From: Gardnerella vaginalis ATCC 14018 = JCM 11026
GTDB taxonomy: Bacteria; Actinomycetota; Actinomycetes; Actinomycetales; Bifidobacteriaceae
DNA: 64,000 nucleotides
Assembly (NCBI RefSeq): GCF_001042655.1
Contig: NZ_AP012332.1
Span: 744,001-808,000, forward strand
Direction of reading: 5' to 3'
Shown: in pieces, positions 41,085 through 56,620 of the stretch
How positions within the stretch are numbered: position 1 is the stretch's first letter
Layout: every line of letters starts with the position of its first letter
Translations under genes and position numbers: made by a program
The notes under the pieces: model-generated
The model's input: the letters and a program-made list of their open reading frames with translations, nothing else
What the model was told of the DNA's origin: nothing
Database searches by the model: none

Positions 41085-42314
41085 ATGACGAATGTATTTT
41101 CTGATTCTTCTAATCAAGTTTTTTCTCGTTGCGCAATTGCTCAATCGTTAGCAAACAAAAGCGTTGTTACTTTAGACGATATTTCCACGGCGCAAATACG
41201 AATGCTTTTAGACAAAGCCAGATATATTGACGAGCACAGAAAAGAAGTGGCCCACACTTGCGATGGCAGAGTGTTGGCCACTCTTTTTTATGAGCCGAGC
41301 ACGAGAACGCGACTAAGCTTTGAAACTGCAATGCTTCGCTTAGGTGGAAAGGTGATTGGTTTTGCAGGCGCTCAGCTTTCTAGTGCAAGTAAAGGCGAAA
41401 CAGTTAGCGACACTTTAAAAGTGGTGTCAAATTATGTAGATGTTGTAGCTATGCGTCATCCTAAAGAAGGTGCTGCATTTGTGGCGTCGCATGCAGGAAG
41501 TGTTCCTGTTGTTAACGCAGGAGATGGTGGTCATATGCACCCTACTCAAACTCTTGCAGATTTAGCTACAATTCTTGCACGATTTGGCAGGCTGAATAAT
41601 TTAACAGTTGGTTTATGTGGAGATTTAACATACGGCCGCACTGTTCACTCGCTTATCGAAACTTTATGCCGCTTTGGAAACGTTCACTTTGTGCTAATTA
41701 GCCCAGATGAGCTTAAAACTCCTCAGTACGTAATCGACCGCATTAATGATACACCTTCGTGCTCTTACGAAGAAACGCGCAATTTGATGGAAGTTATTGG
41801 CAGTCTAGACGTTCTTTACATGACTCGCGTGCAAGAAGAGCGTTTTACAGATCGCGAGCAATACTTGCGACTTCGTGACACTTACATTTTGACAGAAGAA
41901 AAATTGCAAAAAGCAAAATCTTATATGCCAGTGCTTCATCCACTTCCTAGAATTAACGAAATCGCTGTTGATGTTGATGACGATCCTCGTGCAGCATATT
42001 TTGAACAGGTTAAGAATGGCATGCTTATGCGAATGGCATTAGAAAGCTCTGTTCTTGGAGATGAGCTTCCAGGATATGAACCGACTGATTTTGTCAATGT
42101 TCCTAAAGATGAGTTGGAAGCTTACGATGCTCATGGAATTTCGTTGGCTAATCCTCGCGTTCACATATCTGACGAGAATGCTCCAGAAAATCTTATATGT
42201 CCTAACTCTCGTTGCATAACAAATAGTGAGTTGACTCTTAAGCGTAGATTCTATAAAGCTGAGTCAGATAGACATGAGTATCATTGCTTGTATTGTGATG
42301 AAGAATTGCAGTGA
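41085..42314 (+). CDS. pyrB: Aspartate carbamoyltransferase with a C-terminal PyrI-type zinc module
   Basis: Condenses carbamoyl phosphate and aspartate, second pyrimidine step, 409 aa (usual PyrB about 310). Catalytic features: YEPSTRTRLSFE (STRTR at 72-76), HPTQTLADL, YMTRVQEERF and VLHPLPRINEI. After the catalytic chain ends near residue 325 there is a linker of about 45 residues, then C372-PNSR-C377 and C401-LY-C404. The 24-residue step between the middle cysteines equals that of E. coli PyrI (Cys109, 114, 138, 141). The N-terminal allosteric half of PyrI is missing and no separate pyrI lies in the cluster. First gene of pyrB-C-F-K-D-E. Confidence 0.93.
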   Translation: MTNVFSDSSNQVFSRCAIAQSLANKSVVTLDDISTAQIRMLLDKARYIDEHRKEVAHTCDGRVLATLFYEPSTRTRLSFETAMLRLGGKVIGFAGAQLSSASKGETVSDTLKVVSNYVDVVAMRHPKEGAAFVASHAGSVPVVNAGDGGHMHPTQTLADLATILARFGRLNNLTVGLCGDLTYGRTVHSLIETLCRFGNVHFVLISPDELKTPQYVIDRINDTPSCSYEETRNLMEVIGSLDVLYMTRVQEERFTDREQYLRLRDTYILTEEKLQKAKSYMPVLHPLPRINEIAVDVDDDPRAAYFEQVKNGMLMRMALESSVLGDELPGYEPTDFVNVPKDELEAYDAHGISLANPRVHISDENAPENLICPNSRCITNSELTLKRRFYKAESDRHEYHCLYCDEELQ

Positions 42315-43897: not shown

Positions 43898-44932
43898 ATG
43901 GACGAACTGATAGAAGAAATAGCAGCGAAGCAAAACCCTACTGTTGTTGGATTAGATCCAAAGCCTGGGATTTTGCCTGCGCAAATTTTAAGTGGATTAT
44001 CTGATGAAGTTTTGCAAGAAGTCGAAGATGAAGAGGCTTTGCCAACCTTGCTTGCTGCATCGTACTTTGAGTTTAATCGTGCGATTATTGATGCGATTTA
44101 TGACATTGTTCCAGCTGTTAAGCCGCAAATTGCAATGTATGAGGCGCTTGGTTCAGCTGGAATAGACACTTATGCTATGACTTGTGATTATGCAAAATCA
44201 CGTGGGTTATTTGTTATTGGTGACGCAAAACGAGGCGATATTGGTTCCACTGCAGCTCAGTATGCAGCACATTTGCGAGGATTCGCTAATCTTGATTCGT
44301 ATTTCAAAGATGATTCTTACGATTTTAACGAATCTTTAGTTAATCTTCTTAAAAGCGCTAGTACAAAAGATGTGTGGCACGAGGATTCGTTTACTGTAAA
44401 CCCGTATATGGGTTCAGATGGTGTTAAGCCATTTATAGATGAGGCAGTAGCGCGTAATAAAAATATTTTTGTTCTTCTACGCACATCTAATCCTTCTAGC
44501 AAAGAGCTTCAAGAACTTGTTGTTGAAGATGGCAAACCAGTTTATGAGCATATGGCAGGTTTGATAGAAAAATGGGGTGAATCAAATATTGGGACTAGAG
44601 GGTATTCGCGAGTAGGAGCAGTAGTGGGAGCAACTCATCCAGAAGAAGGTAAGCGTTTGCGCGAGATTATGCCGCACACTTTCTTCCTTGTTCCAGGTTA
44701 TGGCGCACAAGGTGGAACGGCACAAGATGTTGCTGGAATGTTTGATGAAAATGGTCGAGGTGCAATAGTGAATTCTTCTCGCGGAATTATTGGTTCTTGG
44801 CGAAAATCGCAAGATTATGTTAAAAACAAGTCTTCTCTTTCTCTTAATAATATTCTTGAGATTGTATCTGATTCTGCTCGCAAATCTGCTTTAAACATGA
44901 GGGATGATTTAAGACAAGCAGTATATAAATAA
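43898..44932 (+). CDS. pyrF: Orotidine 5'-phosphate decarboxylase (catalytic copy)
   Basis: Last step to UMP, 344 aa, type 2 family. The catalytic D109-A-K111-R-G-D114 (IGDAKRGDIGST) is intact. VVGLDPKPG at the N-terminus, PAVKPQIAMYEALG, TVNPYMG and the phosphate loop VPGYGAQGG with NSSRGI are present. Somewhat longer than usual, through an insertion around 145-165. AGAGGAACA ribosome site. A second, degenerate homologue lies at 55081-55980. Confidence 0.95.
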   Translation: MDELIEEIAAKQNPTVVGLDPKPGILPAQILSGLSDEVLQEVEDEEALPTLLAASYFEFNRAIIDAIYDIVPAVKPQIAMYEALGSAGIDTYAMTCDYAKSRGLFVIGDAKRGDIGSTAAQYAAHLRGFANLDSYFKDDSYDFNESLVNLLKSASTKDVWHEDSFTVNPYMGSDGVKPFIDEAVARNKNIFVLLRTSNPSSKELQELVVEDGKPVYEHMAGLIEKWGESNIGTRGYSRVGAVVGATHPEEGKRLREIMPHTFFLVPGYGAQGGTAQDVAGMFDENGRGAIVNSSRGIIGSWRKSQDYVKNKSSLSLNNILEIVSDSARKSALNMRDDLRQAVYK

Positions 44933-47093: not shown

Positions 47094-47786
47094 ATGGCAG
47101 AATTAGACGAACGTTTTACAAAGTTTTTGCTTGATTCAGGCGCACTTAAATTTGGTGATTTTACGCTAAAATCTGGTCGTCAATCACCTTATTTTATTAA
47201 CGCTGGAGCTTTTGACGACGGAATGAAAATCGCGAGCTTAGGAGCATATTACGCTCAGCGCGTTGTTGCAGCAATTGAAGATGGCAAACTTCCGCAAGAT
47301 ATTGATACTGTTTTTGGTCCTGCTTATAAGGGCATTCCGCTTGCAGTTTCTACGGCAATGGCTTTGACGAATAATCACAATATGCCTGTTGGTTTTACTT
47401 TTGATCGCAAAGAGCGAAAGGACCATGGCGACGGTGGAATTATGGTTGGAAAACCGTTAAAAGACGGCATGAAAGTTCTGTTAGTTGACGACGTGATGAC
47501 CGCTGGAACCGCAGTTCGTGAAACTTTGCCAAAGCTTAAAGCGGAAGCAAATGTGCAAGTTGTAGGCTTGATTTTGGCAGTAGACAGAATGGAACGCACG
47601 AAAGATAGTGAGCTTTCTGCAGTAAAAGCAGTAGAGCAGGAGTTTGGATTCCCAGTGTTGCCAATTGCTAACGTGCGTGAAATTTTTGCTGCAGCACAAA
47701 AACTTACTAATAATGACGGAAGCGCTGTTATGGATGAGAATTTAGCTGCTCGAGCTGAAAATTATTTGCGAGAATATGGTGCGTAA
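47094..47786 (+). CDS. pyrE: Orotate phosphoribosyltransferase
   Basis: Adds PRPP to orotate, giving OMP, 230 aa. PRPP motif [29 protein letters not shown] near the N-terminus; [11 protein letters not shown]; and the flexible loop [12 protein letters not shown] with its catalytic lysine. Last gene of the pyr cluster. AAGAAAGAGAG ribosome site. Confidence 0.96.
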
Positions 47787-47827: not shown

Positions 47828-47913
47828 TAATCAAGCAATTATATAAGTCATGTATGAGTTGTGTTCTTGCTATTTTATTCATACATAGGTTTGTTAAACA
47901 GGAATGGCGGATT

Positions 47914-48855
47914 ATGAAAGAGGACAATAACGAATATCAGGATTTGAATGATATAGATTCATTTAATAATCCGCCTGAGTATGAGCAAGATGCCATTTTT
48001 GATCGGTCTAGTAATGATTCAAACAGATCATTATTAAGCGATAAGAAAGCTATTGCAGTGATTATATCTGTTTCACTTATTGCAGTAGCAATTGTTATCG
48101 GAATATGGTTATCTTTGTTTGCGCATAGTTCTAGTAATATAAACGCTGGCGAGCCATCTAAAAAGTGCGTGCAGTTGCGTACACAAGTTCTTTCAGCTAA
48201 AGCTAATCTTAAAAAAATCATTTCAAGCCAAAACGTGCATGATGCTTCTGAAATAAAATCTTCCGATTTTGATGCTGATTTTGATTCAGTTAAGGATGCT
48301 GTTGACGATTTTCAATCTTCCTTAAATTATGCCAAGGATGATTTGAAAAATGATATTTTAGATTGCCCAGTTGGAGCTAGTTCTTACGATTCCCCATCAG
48401 TTGAAAATAAGTTTTCCAACCAGTTGGATACTTTGAGTAAAGATGCGGATTTGCTTAAAAAATCTTCTGATAATCTTTTAAAAACACGCAGAACTGCTTT
48501 TGGTGATCAATTGTTAAATCTTGTTAAAAAAGCTAGAGAGCTTGTAGAAAAAGCGAAAGATTTGCCTATTTTAGCTGTTGCTTCTAAAAGTCTAGAAAAT
48601 GCTATTAATGATGCTGGTAATGCTCTTGCTAAAAGCAGCAATAATTATCAAGAGTTAAGACAGTCTTATCAAAAAATAAAAGCTGTTATAAGCCAGTACG
48701 AAGATAGAATTAAAAAAATGAGCGATAGATTTTTAAGTAGAGATGGCAATGGGTATCCTTTTGATGCTCCACATCCTCAGGATGATCAAGGTGGCTATAT
48801 TCCAATGGGTCGTAGTCAAAACTCAGAGTCGTCGGAACAAAACGATCAAGAGTGA
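47914..48855 (+). CDS. Membrane-anchored extracellular coiled-coil protein, unknown
   Basis: 313 aa from the ATG at 47914; the open frame extends 20 codons upstream without a ribosome site. Acidic cytoplasmic head (1-45), one membrane helix (about 46-70), then a mostly helical Asp/Ser/Lys/Leu-rich outside domain with two Cys (about 80 and 145), and a Gln/Asp/Ser-rich C-terminal tail. Layout matches the protein at 14525-15448, though the tails differ. I do not recognise a domain. It stands alone between pyrE and efp. Confidence 0.7.
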   Translation: MKEDNNEYQDLNDIDSFNNPPEYEQDAIFDRSSNDSNRSLLSDKKAIAVIISVSLIAVAIVIGIWLSLFAHSSSNINAGEPSKKCVQLRTQVLSAKANLKKIISSQNVHDASEIKSSDFDADFDSVKDAVDDFQSSLNYAKDDLKNDILDCPVGASSYDSPSVENKFSNQLDTLSKDADLLKKSSDNLLKTRRTAFGDQLLNLVKKARELVEKAKDLPILAVASKSLENAINDAGNALAKSSNNYQELRQSYQKIKAVISQYEDRIKKMSDRFLSRDGNGYPFDAPHPQDDQGGYIPMGRSQNSESSEQNDQE

Positions 48856-50437: not shown

Positions 50438-51652
50438 GTGGGCTATAACGACACCTTCGCCGGATTCGGCACTGATGATGCAGTATTAGTATTGGAAGAC
50501 GGACAAGTTTACGTTGGTAAACCATTTGGCGCAAAAGGTTCTACGCGCGCTGAAATCGTGTTCTCTACAGGAATGACTGGTTACCAAGAAACGCTTACTG
50601 ATCCAAGTTATGATCAACAAATAGTTGTTCAAACGTTCCCACACATAGGAAATACGGGAATTAACAATGAAGACCCAGAATCTTCAAAAATATGGGTTGC
50701 AGGATACGTGGTAAAAGCTCCAAGCCCTATTGTTAGCAATTGGAGATCCACTGGTTCCTTGGAAGATGATTTAGAAAAACAAGGGATAGTAGGAATCAGT
50801 GGTATTGATACGAGAATGCTGGTACGACATTTACGCTCAGTTGGCGTTATGCGTGCCGGCATTTTTTCTAATGAAGCACTGATAGACAAATCTACTGGAG
50901 CAATTCGCACAGTTGCGTCTTTTGTGAATGAGATTAAACAAACTCCTCAAATGCAAGGCTTGCGACTAACTGACGAAGTTAGCACGCAAGAAGCTTATAC
51001 AATTGAGCCTTGTGGAGATTACGAAGGCAAGGAGCCTCTTTACACTGTTGTAGCTGTGGACTTTGGTATAAAAGCCATGACTCCGCATCGTTTGGCACAG
51101 CGTGGATGCCGTGTACACGTTGTAAGCTCCTCAATAAGTTTTGAGTCACTTCAAGCACTTAACGCAGATGGCGTGTTCTTCTCGAATGGACCAGGTGATC
51201 CTGCTCAAGCAAATCGAGAAGTGGAATTATTGCGTAACGTGTTAGACGCAGGATACCCATTCTTTGGAATATGCTTTGGAAACCAGCTTTTAGGTCGCGC
51301 GCTTGGGTTTGGAACGTACAAGCTTAAGTTTGGTCATCGTGGCATAAATCAGCCTGTAAAAGACGTGACTACTGGAAAAGTGGAAGTTACGGCTCATAAT
51401 CACGGATTTGCTGTAGATGCACCTATTGGTAAGACTGTTCAGTCTCCTTACGAAAATGGACATTTTGGTCGCGTAATAGTATCTCATGTAGATCTTAACG
51501 ACAATGTTGTAGAAGGCTTGCAATGCCTTGATATTCCAGCTTTTTCTGTGCAATATCATCCAGAAGCAGCCGCAGGACCTCATGATGCATCGTACTTGTT
51601 TAACCGCTTTGTAGAACTTATGCAAAATCACAAGAATAAAAGCGAAAAATAG
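50438..51652 (+). CDS. carA: Carbamoyl-phosphate synthase small (glutaminase) subunit
   Basis: Releases ammonia from glutamine for CarB, 404 aa. Class I amidotransferase triad: nucleophile Cys in [16 protein letters not shown], then His and Glu in [13 protein letters not shown]-terminal CPSase domain has [19 protein letters not shown] start with AAGGGGG upstream. 29 nt before carB. The product feeds both PyrB and arginine synthesis. Confidence 0.96.
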
Positions 51653-51681: not shown

Positions 51682-54600
51682 ATGCCAAAACGTGCTGATA
51701 TTAAATCCGTAATGGTTATTGGTTCTGGTCCAATCGTAATTGGTCAGGCTGCAGAATTCGACTACTCTGGAACGCAAGCTTGCCGAGTACTTCACGAAGA
51801 AGGAATCCGCGTAATTCTTGTAAACTCTAATCCTGCTACTATTATGACGGACCCAGAGCTTGCAGACGCAACATATATTGAGCCAATAGACACGGCAATT
51901 TTGGAGCGCATTATTGCTAAAGAGAAGCCAGATGCGCTTCTTCCAACATTAGGTGGTCAAACTGCTCTTAATGCCGCAATGGACTTGGGTCGTGCAGGAA
52001 TCTTAAAAAAGTATAATGTAGAGCTTATTGGTGCATCTTTGGAAGCAATCGACCGCGGAGAAGACCGTGAGCTTTTCAAAAAAGTTGTTGAAAAAGCTGG
52101 GGCAGAAAGTGCAAAATCCTTTATTGCTCACTCAATTGAAGAAGTAGACAAAATTGTTGAAACACTAGGGTACCCAGTTGTTGTGCGTCCAAGCTTCACA
52201 ATGGGAGGTTTAGGCTCTGGAATTGCTCACAATCAGGAAGAATTACACCGCATTGCAGGAGCAGGCATTCACTATTCTCCAACAAACGAAGTGCTTATTG
52301 AAGAAGGCATTGAAGGTTGGAAGGAATTTGAGCTTGAGCTTATGCGAGATTCCAAAGACAATGTTGTTGTTGTGTGCCCAATCGAAAATGTTGATCCTGT
52401 AGGCGTTCACACAGGCGACTCGATTACAGTTGCTCCATGCTTTACGCTAACAGATCGCGAGTATCAAAAGATGCGTGATATTGGCATCGCGATTATTCGA
52501 GGTGTTGGCGTTGACACTGGCGGATGCAATATTCAGTTCGCAATCAATCCTCGAACTGGTCGCATTATCGTAATCGAAATGAATCCGCGAGTTTCGCGTT
52601 CTTCTGCGCTAGCATCTAAAGCAACTGGTTTCCCGATTGCAAAAATCGCTACAAAACTTGCCCTCGGGTACACTTTGGACGAAATTCAAAACGATATTAC
52701 GCGTTCAACTCCTGCAAGCTTTGAGCCAACGATTGACTATGTGGTAACTAAGATTCCGCGCTTTGCTTTTGAAAAGTTCCCTGGAGCAGACACTACGCTT
52801 ACAACTTCTATGAAGTCAGTCGGCGAAGCAATGGCTTTGGCTGGGAATTTCCAGGAATCTCTTGGCAAAGCAATGCGATCAATCGATAAACGTCACGCTT
52901 GCTTTAATTGGGACGGCGAGCGCCCAAGTAAAGAAGAAGTTGCTAAGCTTCTTGAAGAAATTCATACTCCAACCGAGCACCGCTACTTGCAAATTCAGCG
53001 CGCGCTCTGGGGTGGGGCTACGCCTGAGCAGATTTTTGACGCAACAAAGATAGACCCATGGTTTGTTGAGCAGCTTTCGTTAATCAATAAAACAGCTTTA
53101 GAGGTTCGTGAAGCAGAAAATTTGACGCCAAAAGTGTTAAAGAATGCTAAGCTTGCTGGTCTTTCGGATGTTCAAATTGCGCATTTGCGTAATCTTGGCG
53201 ACGAAGGCGAAAACATGGTTCGTGAGCTGCGTTGGGCGTATGGATTGCATCCTGTTTACAAAACGGTTGACACTTGCGCTGCCGAGTTCGACGCTGTAAC
53301 ACCTTACTACTATTCTTGCTACGCTGACGAAAGCGAGCTTAAGCCACGCGATCGTGACGCTGTAATCATTCTTGGCTCTGGTCCAAACAGAATAGGTCAG
53401 GGTATTGAGTTTGACTACACTTGCGTTCATGCTGTGCAAGAGCTGGGTAAGGATTACGACACAATCATGGTCAATTGCAATCCTGAAACAGTTTCTACAG
53501 ACTACGATATGTCGGATCGCCTTTACTTTGAGCCGCTTACTTTTGAAGACGTGCTCGAAATTTACCAAGCAGAAAAGAAGCTTGGTCCAGTAAAAGGTGT
53601 TATTGTGCAACTTGGCGGCCAAACTCCACTTTCGCTTGCTGCACGTCTTAAAGCTGCAGGAGTTCCAATTTTGGGCACTACGCCTGAGGCTATTGATTTG
53701 GCGGAAAATCGTGAGCTTTTCGGTGAGGTTCTTCGTCAAGAAGGCATGAATGCTCCGCGCTACGGAACTGCATTAAGCCTTGAAGAGGCTAAAGATGCTG
53801 CTCACGCAATTGGTTACCCTGTTCTTGTGCGACCAAGTTATGTGCTTGGCGGTCGAGGAATGGAAATCGTGTACGATGATGCTCAGCTTGCAAAATATGT
53901 GGATCGTGCTTTACAGGAAGCTCAAGCAGACACTGTTGTTTCTGGTCGTTTGCCTTCGCCGCTTTTGATTGATAAATTCCTTCAGGACGCTATTGAGATT
54001 GATGTTGACGCACTTTACGACGGCAATGAGCTTTATATTGGCGGAATTATGGAGCATGTTGAGGAAGCTGGCGTACACTCTGGTGACGCTGCTTGTACTC
54101 TTCCTCCAAGCACGCTTTCCGACGATCAAATTCGTAGACTTCGCGAGGGCACGCTTTCGATTGCTCGCGGATGCTCAGTTCGTGGTCTTATTAATGTGCA
54201 ATATGCTTTTATGGCAAACACTTTGTACGTAATTGAGGCGAATCCTCGAGCATCTCGTACTGTTCCGTTTGCGTCTAAAGCTACGGGAGTTGCTCTTGCT
54301 AAAGCTGCTGCTCGAATTATGGCTGGGGAAACAATCGCACAGCAGCGAAAGCGCGGTCTTCTTCTTCCTAAGGGAGATGGTGGAGATATTCACCCAGGCC
54401 AGCAAGTTGCTATTAAAGCTTCCGTCTTGCCTTTCAAACGTTTCCGCACGCCTGTTGGTCGCACAGTCGATATTTTGCTCGGACCAGAGATGCGCTCTAC
54501 TGGAGAAGTTATGGGCTTTGACCGCGACTTCCCACATGCTTTTGCTAAGAGTCAGCTTGCAGCGTACAAGGGCGGTTTGCCTACAAGCGGCAACGTGTTT

Positions 54601-55077
54601 GTGTCTGTAAGTGATGCAGATAAAAGACAATTGCCGCTACTTGCAGTGCGCCTAGTAGAGCTTGGATTTACGATTTGGGCTACAGAAGGTACGGCATCTG
54701 TTCTTAGACGTTACGGCATTGATTCCGTTATTGTTGATAAGCTTTCTAGCCTTGGCGACACGGCGAAGGATGTGCGAAATGCTGAGCCTTCGCATGAAAG
54801 AATCGGCAAAAACGTGGTTGAGCTGATTGAGAATGGTAAGATTGATATGGTGTTGAACACGCCGAATTCAAGAGGGTCGCGTACAGATGGTTATGCTATT
54901 CGTGCAGCTGCTGTTGCAGCAGACCTTCCGCAATTCACTACAATTACGGAGTTTGCACCAGTTCTTATGGCTATAGAAGCCGTTAAGAACAACGATTACC
55001 AAGTGATGAGCATTCAGGAGCATGCAAAGCAACTGTTTGCAATCGAGAAGGCAGAAAACGAAGAAAGTCGGGCTTAA
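51682..55077 (+). CDS. carB: Carbamoyl-phosphate synthase large subunit
   Basis: 1131 aa, two homologous ATP-grasp halves: the first begins [20 protein letters not shown], the second [18 protein letters not shown]. Each half has an ATP-grasp core ([14 protein letters not shown] and [18 protein letters not shown] segments). An oligomerisation domain lies between and the C-terminus is an MGS-like allosteric domain (from about 985, [12 protein letters not shown]). Full length. AAAGGAA ribosome site. It ends 3 nt before the PyrF-like gene. Confidence 0.97.
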
Positions 55078-55080
55078 TAC

Positions 55081-55980
55081 ATGACCGAAAGCATACGAGA
55101 GCAGGAATTGCAGGCGCAAAGATCCGATTTTGGATTGCGTCTAAAAAACGCTATGGCAAAATATGGGCCATTATGCGTTGGCATAGATCCGCACCGCAAG
55201 ATGCTGCTTAATTGGGGATACAAGATGGATGCTCAAGGAGCAGAATTGTTCTCCATGCGTATGCTTCAGGCCATGAACGGCAGAGCTGCTGCCGTAAAAT
55301 TCCAGTCGAGCATGTTCGAGCGTTACGGGTCTAAGGGGTTCGCGGCGCTCGAACGAGTGCTGTATGCTGCAAGACAAATGGATGTAATTACTATTGTTGA
55401 TTGTGGTCATGGTGGTTTGTCTACAACAATCTCTGCGCTTGCCGACGCATACTTTAAGCCAGATGCGCCTCTTCTTACTGATGCTATTACACTTCTTCCG
55501 TATTACGGAGCTAGGTCAATGGGTGGGTTGATTAATGAGGCTCTTAATAATGGCAAGGGAGTGTTCATTGCTTCGCTAACGTCTAATCGCGAAGGCGCTA
55601 GCCTGCAAACTGCTATTCGTCAGACTGGTTCCTACCGCGGCACAACTGTTGCTCATGGTATTGCTCAAACTGCGCAAATTTTTAACAATAATACAAAGGG
55701 CATGGGTTCCGTTGGCTTAATTGTTGGAGCCACTATTGGAGATTGGATGAATGGCGGTGGAATCGATTTAACGAGTTTTACTGGTCCTATTCTTTCTCCA
55801 GGTTACGGTTGGCAGGGAGCGGAAGCTAACGATTTGAAAACGGTTTTTGCTGGTACGCATGGAAATGTTTTAGTAACAGTTTCTAGGTCTATTGCTTCTC
55901 ATGGTCCAGATATTGGTGCATTATCTACTGCAACTGAACGAATAGCTTGGGATATTCGTCAAGCTTTAATGGATTCATGA
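55081..55980 (+). CDS. Degenerate orotidine-5'-phosphate decarboxylase paralogue
   Basis: 299 aa. Position (carB-here-gmk-rpoZ) and sequence (FGLRL, GPLCVGIDPH, GYGSKGFAALER-like, GVFIASLTSNREGA) make it the ortholog of the mycobacterial pyrF. The catalytic motif D-x-K-x-x-D, intact in the pyr-cluster copy, reads here D107-C-G109-H-G-G112: the lysine and second aspartate are both gone. Phosphate-side features remain (LSPGYGWQG, VTVSRSI). It starts 3 nt after the carB stop, so it is translated with CarB. It is an intact frame without decay, suggesting a retained non-decarboxylase role (binding or regulation); this is inference. Confidence 0.9.
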   Translation: MTESIREQELQAQRSDFGLRLKNAMAKYGPLCVGIDPHRKMLLNWGYKMDAQGAELFSMRMLQAMNGRAAAVKFQSSMFERYGSKGFAALERVLYAARQMDVITIVDCGHGGLSTTISALADAYFKPDAPLLTDAITLLPYYGARSMGGLINEALNNGKGVFIASLTSNREGASLQTAIRQTGSYRGTTVAHGIAQTAQIFNNNTKGMGSVGLIVGATIGDWMNGGGIDLTSFTGPILSPGYGWQGAEANDLKTVFAGTHGNVLVTVSRSIASHGPDIGALSTATERIAWDIRQALMDS

Positions 55981-56002: not shown

Positions 56003-56620
56003 ATGGTTAGTTTAAACGATACACAGAGTATGCCAGTCGCTACTAAAAGGCGTTTGATTGTTCTTACTGGTCCTACTGCAGCTGGTAAGGGCACTGTTGA
56101 GGGAGTATTGCGCGAAAAACATCCTAATATTTGGCTTTCTGTTTCTGCGACTACCAGAAAACCTCGTTATGATGAGTTTAATGGAATTCATTATTGGTTC
56201 ATTGATGAAGAAGAGTTTGAGCGCAGGAAGAGGAACGGAGAGTTTCTGGAGACTGCTCTTGTTCATGGAATGGCACATTATGGTACTTTAATTCAGCCTG
56301 TTTTAGATCATCTTGCTCAAAACGTTCCAACGCTTCTAGAGATTGATCTTCAGGGAGCTAGGAGAGTTAAGCAGGAAGCTTCTAGATTAGGTTTAGAAGT
56401 CGTATACGTATTTATTGCCCCTCCTAGCTTTGAGGAGCTTAAGCGTCGACTTATTGGTAGAGGCACTGAAACTCCTGAGCAGCAGGCTAAGCGTTTGCAA
56501 ACCGCTAAAGTAGAAATGGCTGCGTCTAGCGAGTTTGATTTTGTGATTGTTAATGACGATGCTCAGCGCGCTGCAGATGAACTTTGGAAGATAATAGCTA
56601 AAGAATACGATTTAGATTAA
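56003..56620 (+). CDS. gmk: Guanylate kinase
   Basis: GMP to GDP, 205 aa. P-loop GPTAAGKGTV (the actinobacterial form rather than GPSGAGKS), GMP-binding SATTRKPR and IHYWFIDEEEFERR, and the late DFVIVNDD. AAGAGAG ribosome site. In most actinobacteria an integration host factor gene (mihF) lies before gmk; none is here, since only 22 nt separate it from the PyrF-like gene. Confidence 0.95.
   Translation: MVSLNDTQSMPVATKRRLIVLTGPTAAGKGTVEGVLREKHPNIWLSVSATTRKPRYDEFNGIHYWFIDEEEFERRKRNGEFLETALVHGMAHYGTLIQPVLDHLAQNVPTLLEIDLQGARRVKQEASRLGLEVVYVFIAPPSFEELKRRLIGRGTETPEQQAKRLQTAKVEMAASSEFDFVIVNDDAQRAADELWKIIAKEYDLD

Follow-up and report, generated by a model that had tools for sequence, protein, structure and literature searches.

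An OMP decarboxylase homologue without its catalytic Lys and Asp is conserved, very likely as a pseudoenzyme, between carB and gmk in Gardnerella and Bifidobacterium

Here, we analysed a window of 64,000 nucleotides from the genome of Gardnerella vaginalis ATCC 14018 (NZ_AP012332.1, positions 744,001-808,000); unless a genome position is named, all coordinates are those within this window. On its forward strand, carA (50438..51652; PF00988 and PF00117) and carB, the gene for the large subunit of carbamoyl-phosphate synthase (51682..55077), are followed by an open frame of 299 amino acids (55081..55980), the ATG start codon of which is located three bases past the carB stop. The next gene on the same strand is gmk (56003..56620), encoding guanylate kinase (Gmk), for which the genome contains a single match. 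The 299-residue protein is a homologue of type-2 OMP decarboxylase (PyrF) and is named orotidine-5'-phosphate decarboxylase in databases. Against TIGR02127, the NCBI model for type-2 PyrF, it scores 203.9 bits (cut-off 110.6; E = 2.4e-60), and it also matches the Pfam model OMPdecase (E = 2e-12). The score above the curated cut-off and the orthologous carB-pyrF-gmk locus make it a member of the family by descent. Its closest solved structure is 3v75 (phmmer E = 7e-63), in which the aligned catalytic motif reads D-A-K-R-G-D. Orthologues show D-x-K-R-G-D at this place, whereas the Gardnerella protein reads D107-C108-G109-H110-G111-G112 (55399..55416, forward strand) and hence lacks both Lys109 and Asp112; we therefore refer to it as the degenerate copy. 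It keeps Asp36, Lys73, Asp107, Gln245, Ser268 and Arg269. Judged by motif, Lys73 (55297..55299) corresponds to the Lys contacting the ribose and belonging to the catalytic tetrad, the GYGWQG stretch with Gln245 (residues 241-246; 55801..55818) to the phosphate-gripper loop and S268-R269 (55882..55887) to the site of the phosphate Arg, all three on the forward strand. Direct reading of the sequence thus bore out the initial annotation, which had pointed to this altered motif in an intact frame three bases after carB and to the retention of the phosphate-binding loop and the SR motif.

A second pyrF gene is found in the pyr cluster of the window (43898..44932, forward strand). Its product reads D109-A-K111-R-G-D114, scores 250.3 bits against TIGR02127 (cut-off 110.6) and is the presumed working OMP decarboxylase. 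The presence of two OMP decarboxylase homologues, one of them with an intact motif, had been proposed beforehand and holds, as both exceed the TIGR02127 cut-off; in the whole genome, two PyrF copies also exceed the Pfam cut-off, while a third place scores below it. The nearest solved structure of the pyr-cluster copy is 3r89 and, judging from this structure and from the neighbouring genes, the copy probably arrived by transfer together with a Firmicutes-like pyr cluster. PyrB, the aspartate carbamoyltransferase (41085-42314), carries the C-terminal PyrI zinc-binding domain PF02748, and the PyrI allosteric domain PF01948 gave no match in the whole genome, PyrB included. No PyrR was found above the model cut-off in the genome; there are two weak matches, one of which (genome positions 791466-791597, window 47466-47597) is located inside the phosphoribosyltransferase of the pyr cluster. 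The pyr region also contains an open reading frame of 333 amino acids (47854-48855) without a Pfam match, for which inspection by eye suggests one membrane-spanning stretch.

In a scan of genome contigs, we read the best 80 of 99 relatives (L005-L084), ten of which belong to the Gardnerella clade, the remainder being Bifidobacterium and one other member of the family. At the carB-gmk site of these Gardnerella and Bifidobacteriaceae loci, Lys109 is absent and Gly112 is present in 80 of 80 cases (best 80 of 99), i.e. the loss of the catalytic residues is consistent across orthologues. The initial annotation had recognised the loss of Lys and Asp in the second copy, but had framed it as a local oddity, whereas it is family-wide in the sampled Bifidobacteriaceae that carry the degenerate copy. 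A local mutation in Gardnerella was rejected as an explanation since the loss is common to all 80 loci read (best 80 of 99), and a chance event or sequencing slip was rejected on the same grounds.

Together with the window and 16 further loci of the family, these best 80 of 99 relatives form an alignment of 97 degenerate rows, in which a few species are doubled (L052/L159, L081/L163 and L071/L164, each pair identical in the tree). The Lys/Asp/Lys/Asp tetrad of a functional OMP decarboxylase is incomplete in all 97 rows: position 109 is occupied by Leu (77 rows), Gly (11), Met (7), Val (1) or Ser (1) and position 112 by Gly throughout. The residues binding ribose and phosphate are kept, with Asp107 in 97 rows, Lys73 in 96 and Asp36, Gln245 and Arg269 in 95 each; the window protein is among the rows that keep Asp36, Lys73, Gln245 and Arg269. 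Pro240 (94 rows) and Ser168 (92 rows; Pro in four others) are conserved as well. In the list of the 120 nearest database proteins, 118 entries carry the altered motif and the other two did not match the search pattern.

Outside the family, all 176 active-type homologues read keep DxKxxD (36 + 120 + 20). They comprise 36 order-level loci in which the motif site could be read (the order search matched 274 of 297 genomes), the homologues P0121-P0240 among the matches listed (120 of 8000; Lys and Asp in 120/120) and 20 class-level loci (20/20; the class search matched 144 of 296 genomes). Both residues are also present in all 40 active-type rows used for comparison, namely the 36 order-level loci and four family loci of group g4, so that no parallel loss of Lys and Asp was found among the 20 class-level loci, the 36 order-level rows and the four g4 rows. 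The g4 loci (L146-L149 from G010-G013; completeness 81-89%) hold one active-type PyrF match each; since neither carB nor gmk is found on the fetched stretch, they provide no intermediate at the carB-gmk locus.

Active PyrF genes of the outgroup occupy the same place as the degenerate copy, with carB upstream in 32 and gmk downstream in 29 of the 36 loci within the stretch examined, in agreement with the earlier assignment of the gene to an ancestral actinobacterial locus. In the tree, the 97 degenerate rows come together with full support in a single group, which is set off by a long stem, long-branch warnings limiting the fine reading of its topology. The shared carB-gmk locus and the single group indicate that Lys and Asp were most likely lost once, in the ancestral copy.

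With type-2 OMP decarboxylases such as 3v75, the degenerate copy has in common the family, the match length, the carB-pyrF-gmk locus and the residues Asp36, Lys73, Asp107, Ser168, Gln245 and Arg269. Apart from the missing Lys109 and Asp112, it differs from them in a set of residues of its own: at 28 positions, a residue that reaches at least 95% in 95 degenerate rows occurs in less than 10% of the 40 active rows, a count that leaves out the two divergent rows L145 and L150. Among the residues specific to the degenerate copy are Phe74 next to Lys73, Cys108 adjoining the lost Lys, Tyr142, the pair Ala164-Ser165 preceding the TSN motif, and Tyr242 and Trp244 in the gripper loop; Phe74, Tyr142, Ala164, Trp244 and a short specific insertion near 181-185 are nearly fixed. 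Several of the new near-invariant residues fall in motifs bordering the OMP site, a placement that derives from motif alignment and family knowledge. An AlphaFold2 model (mean pLDDT 88.4, pTM 0.89) confidently predicts an alpha/beta fold, in which strands and helices follow one another as in a barrel, and assigns low confidence to the loop after the lost motif (below 50 for residues 113-115).

Does the remodelled pocket serve a different chemistry? A neofunctionalised enzyme might carry out another reaction on a nucleotide-like or sugar-phosphate-like ligand, using Lys73, Asp107 and Asp36. The 28 fixed positions, several of them beside active-site motifs, are consistent with such an enzyme, as are a conservation above that of the active PyrF set and two frequent gains that occur in no active row, Cys108 (55402-55404; 92/97 rows) directly beside the lost Lys and Lys126 (55456-55458; 86/97 rows). 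However, no newly fixed Lys, Asp or His was found at the 95% level across the 97 rows. Cys108 is replaced by Ser, Gly or Thr in 5/97 rows and position 109 is variable. We consider a new reaction rather unlikely. With regard to another Lys and Asp in the active site, which had been named beforehand as evidence against an inactive protein, the common gains also include Lys85 and Asp291 (90 rows each); none of the gains is located at a lost position, and one of them may or may not reach the site. The KGPDC/HPS branch of the OMPDC superfamily shares the barrel with the degenerate copy, but its members keep a DxKxxD-type motif, which the degenerate copy does not have.

The neighbourhood of the gene provides hints on a possible partner. 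In 20 of the 80 loci (best 80 of 99), the degenerate copy is fused in frame to Gmk without a stop in between, mostly via linkers rich in Ala, Thr, Asp and Glu; B. reuteri provides one such natural fusion. A count of 25 open frames was not used as the fusion count because two of the genomes in it, G172 and G173, were tested and found not to be fused. Start codons of Gmk were scored in 64 of the 80 loci, the P-loop pattern having missed 16. The 45 codons preceding the Gmk P-loop contain no ATG in 10 of the 20 fused loci, compared to 3 of 44 separate ones. A free Gmk is possible in fused loci too, because 15 of these 20 hold an ATG, GTG or TTG with a four-base ribosome-site match before Gmk, as do 44 of 44 separate loci. 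A quick carB tree (77 rows) requires at least six changes of the fusion state, gain and loss being indistinguishable, and six may be an overcount as this tree separates L020 from L025, which are joined in the tree of the degenerate copy. No fusion to CarB was found in the 79 loci with carB on the locus (among the best 80 of 99). Since the adjacency to carB was already present in active ancestors and the fusions join the degenerate copy only to Gmk, the CarB-linked role suggested in the initial annotation is not specifically supported; the loss of Lys and Asp, the intact frame, the kept binding residues and the intact motif of the pyr-cluster copy are the parts of that interpretation which stand. 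Gmk is the best-supported partner and CarAB a possible one. The adjacency to gmk is ancestral as well, so that the fusions may merely reflect a tolerated merging of neighbours.

The fusions would also suit a ligand-independent scaffold or folding partner, the barrel of which stabilises or oligomerises Gmk (or CarB). The same holds for L145 (G163) and L150 (G094), two rows on long branches, in which the frame is intact despite the additional loss of ribose or phosphate residues. A pure scaffold, however, would not need these residues, which are kept in 95-96 of the 97 rows. Furthermore, Gmk is present in all 12 genomes inspected around gmk, although 11 of them have no match to the degenerate copy there, the twelfth being G163. 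A role as mere scaffold is, in our view, unlikely. In seven of the 11 gmk loci without the degenerate copy, carB is still on the stretch. At one of these seven (L190, 338-1366 on the gmk-oriented strand), a protein that appears amidohydrolase-like by eye is encoded between carB and gmk, and a similar protein is encoded directly upstream of gmk in L186 (159-1136), where the degenerate copy is missing, too.

Among 189 genomes of the window's family, 119 contain a match to the degenerate copy (at least 42% identity), and 117 of these 119 hold at least two TIGR02127 matches, the other two genomes being 74% and 78% complete. Such co-occurrence would be in line with a prozyme-like activator that binds and activates the pyr-cluster PyrF, comparable to the trypanosome prozyme of S-adenosylmethionine decarboxylase, which is likewise reported to be a dead paralogue that is retained alongside its active partner (PMC5201418). 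Yet a TIGR02127 hit is present in 166 of the 189 genomes and 47 of these 166 show no degenerate copy, which is hence dispensable in some lineages and not universally required. Unlike the prozyme, the degenerate copy is not a close paralogue of its live counterpart: the two PyrF copies are 26% identical and differ in their closest solved structure (3v75 and 3r89), so that a shared dimer interface is unlikely and a common dimer is not expected. Activation of the pyr-cluster PyrF appears quite improbable.

Selection on the gene was assessed by dN/dS (NG86). For the 11 sequences of the Gardnerella clade (55 pairs), the degenerate copy has a median of 0.029 and a maximum of 0.053 (39/55 pairs usable), compared to medians of 0.042 for gmk (25/55 pairs) and 0.030 for carB (54/55 pairs), and over 70 other loci the values are 0.152 for the degenerate copy (1774/2415 pairs) and 0.187 for gmk (1486/2415 pairs), with dS close to saturation in many pairs. 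Internal stops are absent from all 119 matches. The gene is thus intact and under strong purifying selection, and the relaxed selection with stops that had been named beforehand as the evidence to look for against a retained function was not seen, dN/dS within Gardnerella being as low as that of carB. From the Gardnerella window to Bifidobacterium, the median amino acid identity is 76.1% for the degenerate copy and 67.5% for Gmk (70 loci each) and 86.7% for CarB (69 loci). The pyr-cluster PyrF reaches a median of 58.8% over 30 loci, those scoring highest against the family model, a value that comes from different genomes and makes the comparison indicative only: the degenerate copy looks better conserved than its live counterpart. 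Speaking of a 'demoted' enzyme, as done initially, is apt in that the catalytic residues are gone, but understates a protein that seems more conserved than the active copy. A relic in slow decay or a residual OMP decarboxylase, as might be suspected from the loss of Lys and Asp, the absence of the gene from several lineages and the long branches of L145 and L150, is hard to defend and highly improbable because the copy is more strongly conserved than Gmk and, by the indicative comparison, than its live counterpart, and because selection contradicts decay in the lineages tested.

But, why should a bacterial family keep a PyrF without catalytic Lys and Asp? From the sequence comparisons, the degenerate copy is very likely a selected pseudoenzyme. 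We favour, with a probability of roughly 0.4, the reading that it is a family-wide pseudoenzyme, which binds a pyrimidine nucleotide without turnover and signals by contact to a partner. Its most likely role, we infer, is that of a sensor for a nucleotide of the UMP/OMP type acting on Gmk or on pyrimidine supply. In the proposed mechanism, the protein would hold a pyrimidine nucleotide, UMP most likely and otherwise OMP, in its former active site without converting it, and the nucleotide-bound form would signal by direct contact to guanylate kinase (most likely), or perhaps to the co-encoded CarAB. The degenerate copy would thereby balance pyrimidine against guanine-nucleotide supply, and could thus provide a control that is otherwise missing, as the genome has neither a PyrR above the cut-off nor a PyrI allosteric domain. 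A more specific version, which we put forward tentatively, is that of a pyrimidine-nucleotide receptor serving as allosteric module of Gmk, in which bound UMP or OMP sets the phosphorylation of GMP. If true, guanine-nucleotide supply would be tied to pyrimidine supply, and the repeated fusion would represent a permanent complex in some species.

The expected ligand follows from work on the OMP decarboxylase of Methanothermobacter, in which K72, the equivalent Lys by motif, is reported to protonate the intermediate; the K72A exchange decreases the activity by about five orders of magnitude, with an equally large drop in the Kd for UMP (PMC12395307). Given the loss of Lys109 along with the retention of the ribose and phosphate contacts, tight binding of UMP (or OMP) by the degenerate copy would be the simplest forecast by analogy. 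Like the K72A laboratory mutant, the degenerate copy is devoid of the equivalent catalytic Lys; unlike the mutant, it is natural, is spread over a bacterial family and has lost the Asp as well. The additional loss of Asp112 speaks against the forecast, as do Phe74, Tyr142, Ala164, Ser165, Trp244 and the insertion, and the pocket may not fit UMP.

A study on a pyrE deletion in B. breve describes one pyrF step (PMC12459721). Another B. breve study reports that the majority of the genes for purine and pyrimidine synthesis are essential, and the term 'pyrF' is absent from its main text (PMC5514069). In the open-licence literature searched, we found neither a catalytically dead PyrF (i.e. a pseudoenzyme of OMP decarboxylase) nor a PyrF-Gmk fusion described, and the presence of two PyrFs in bifidobacteria was not mentioned either. 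The decarboxylase label carried by the dead form can mislead metabolic models as well as 5-fluoroorotate genetics. Textbooks use OMP decarboxylase to illustrate catalytic power, and the degenerate copy may provide a natural counterpart to the laboratory result that loss of the Lys leads to tight binding of UMP. It may also reveal a purine-pyrimidine control that is new to a major family of gut and vaginal bacteria.
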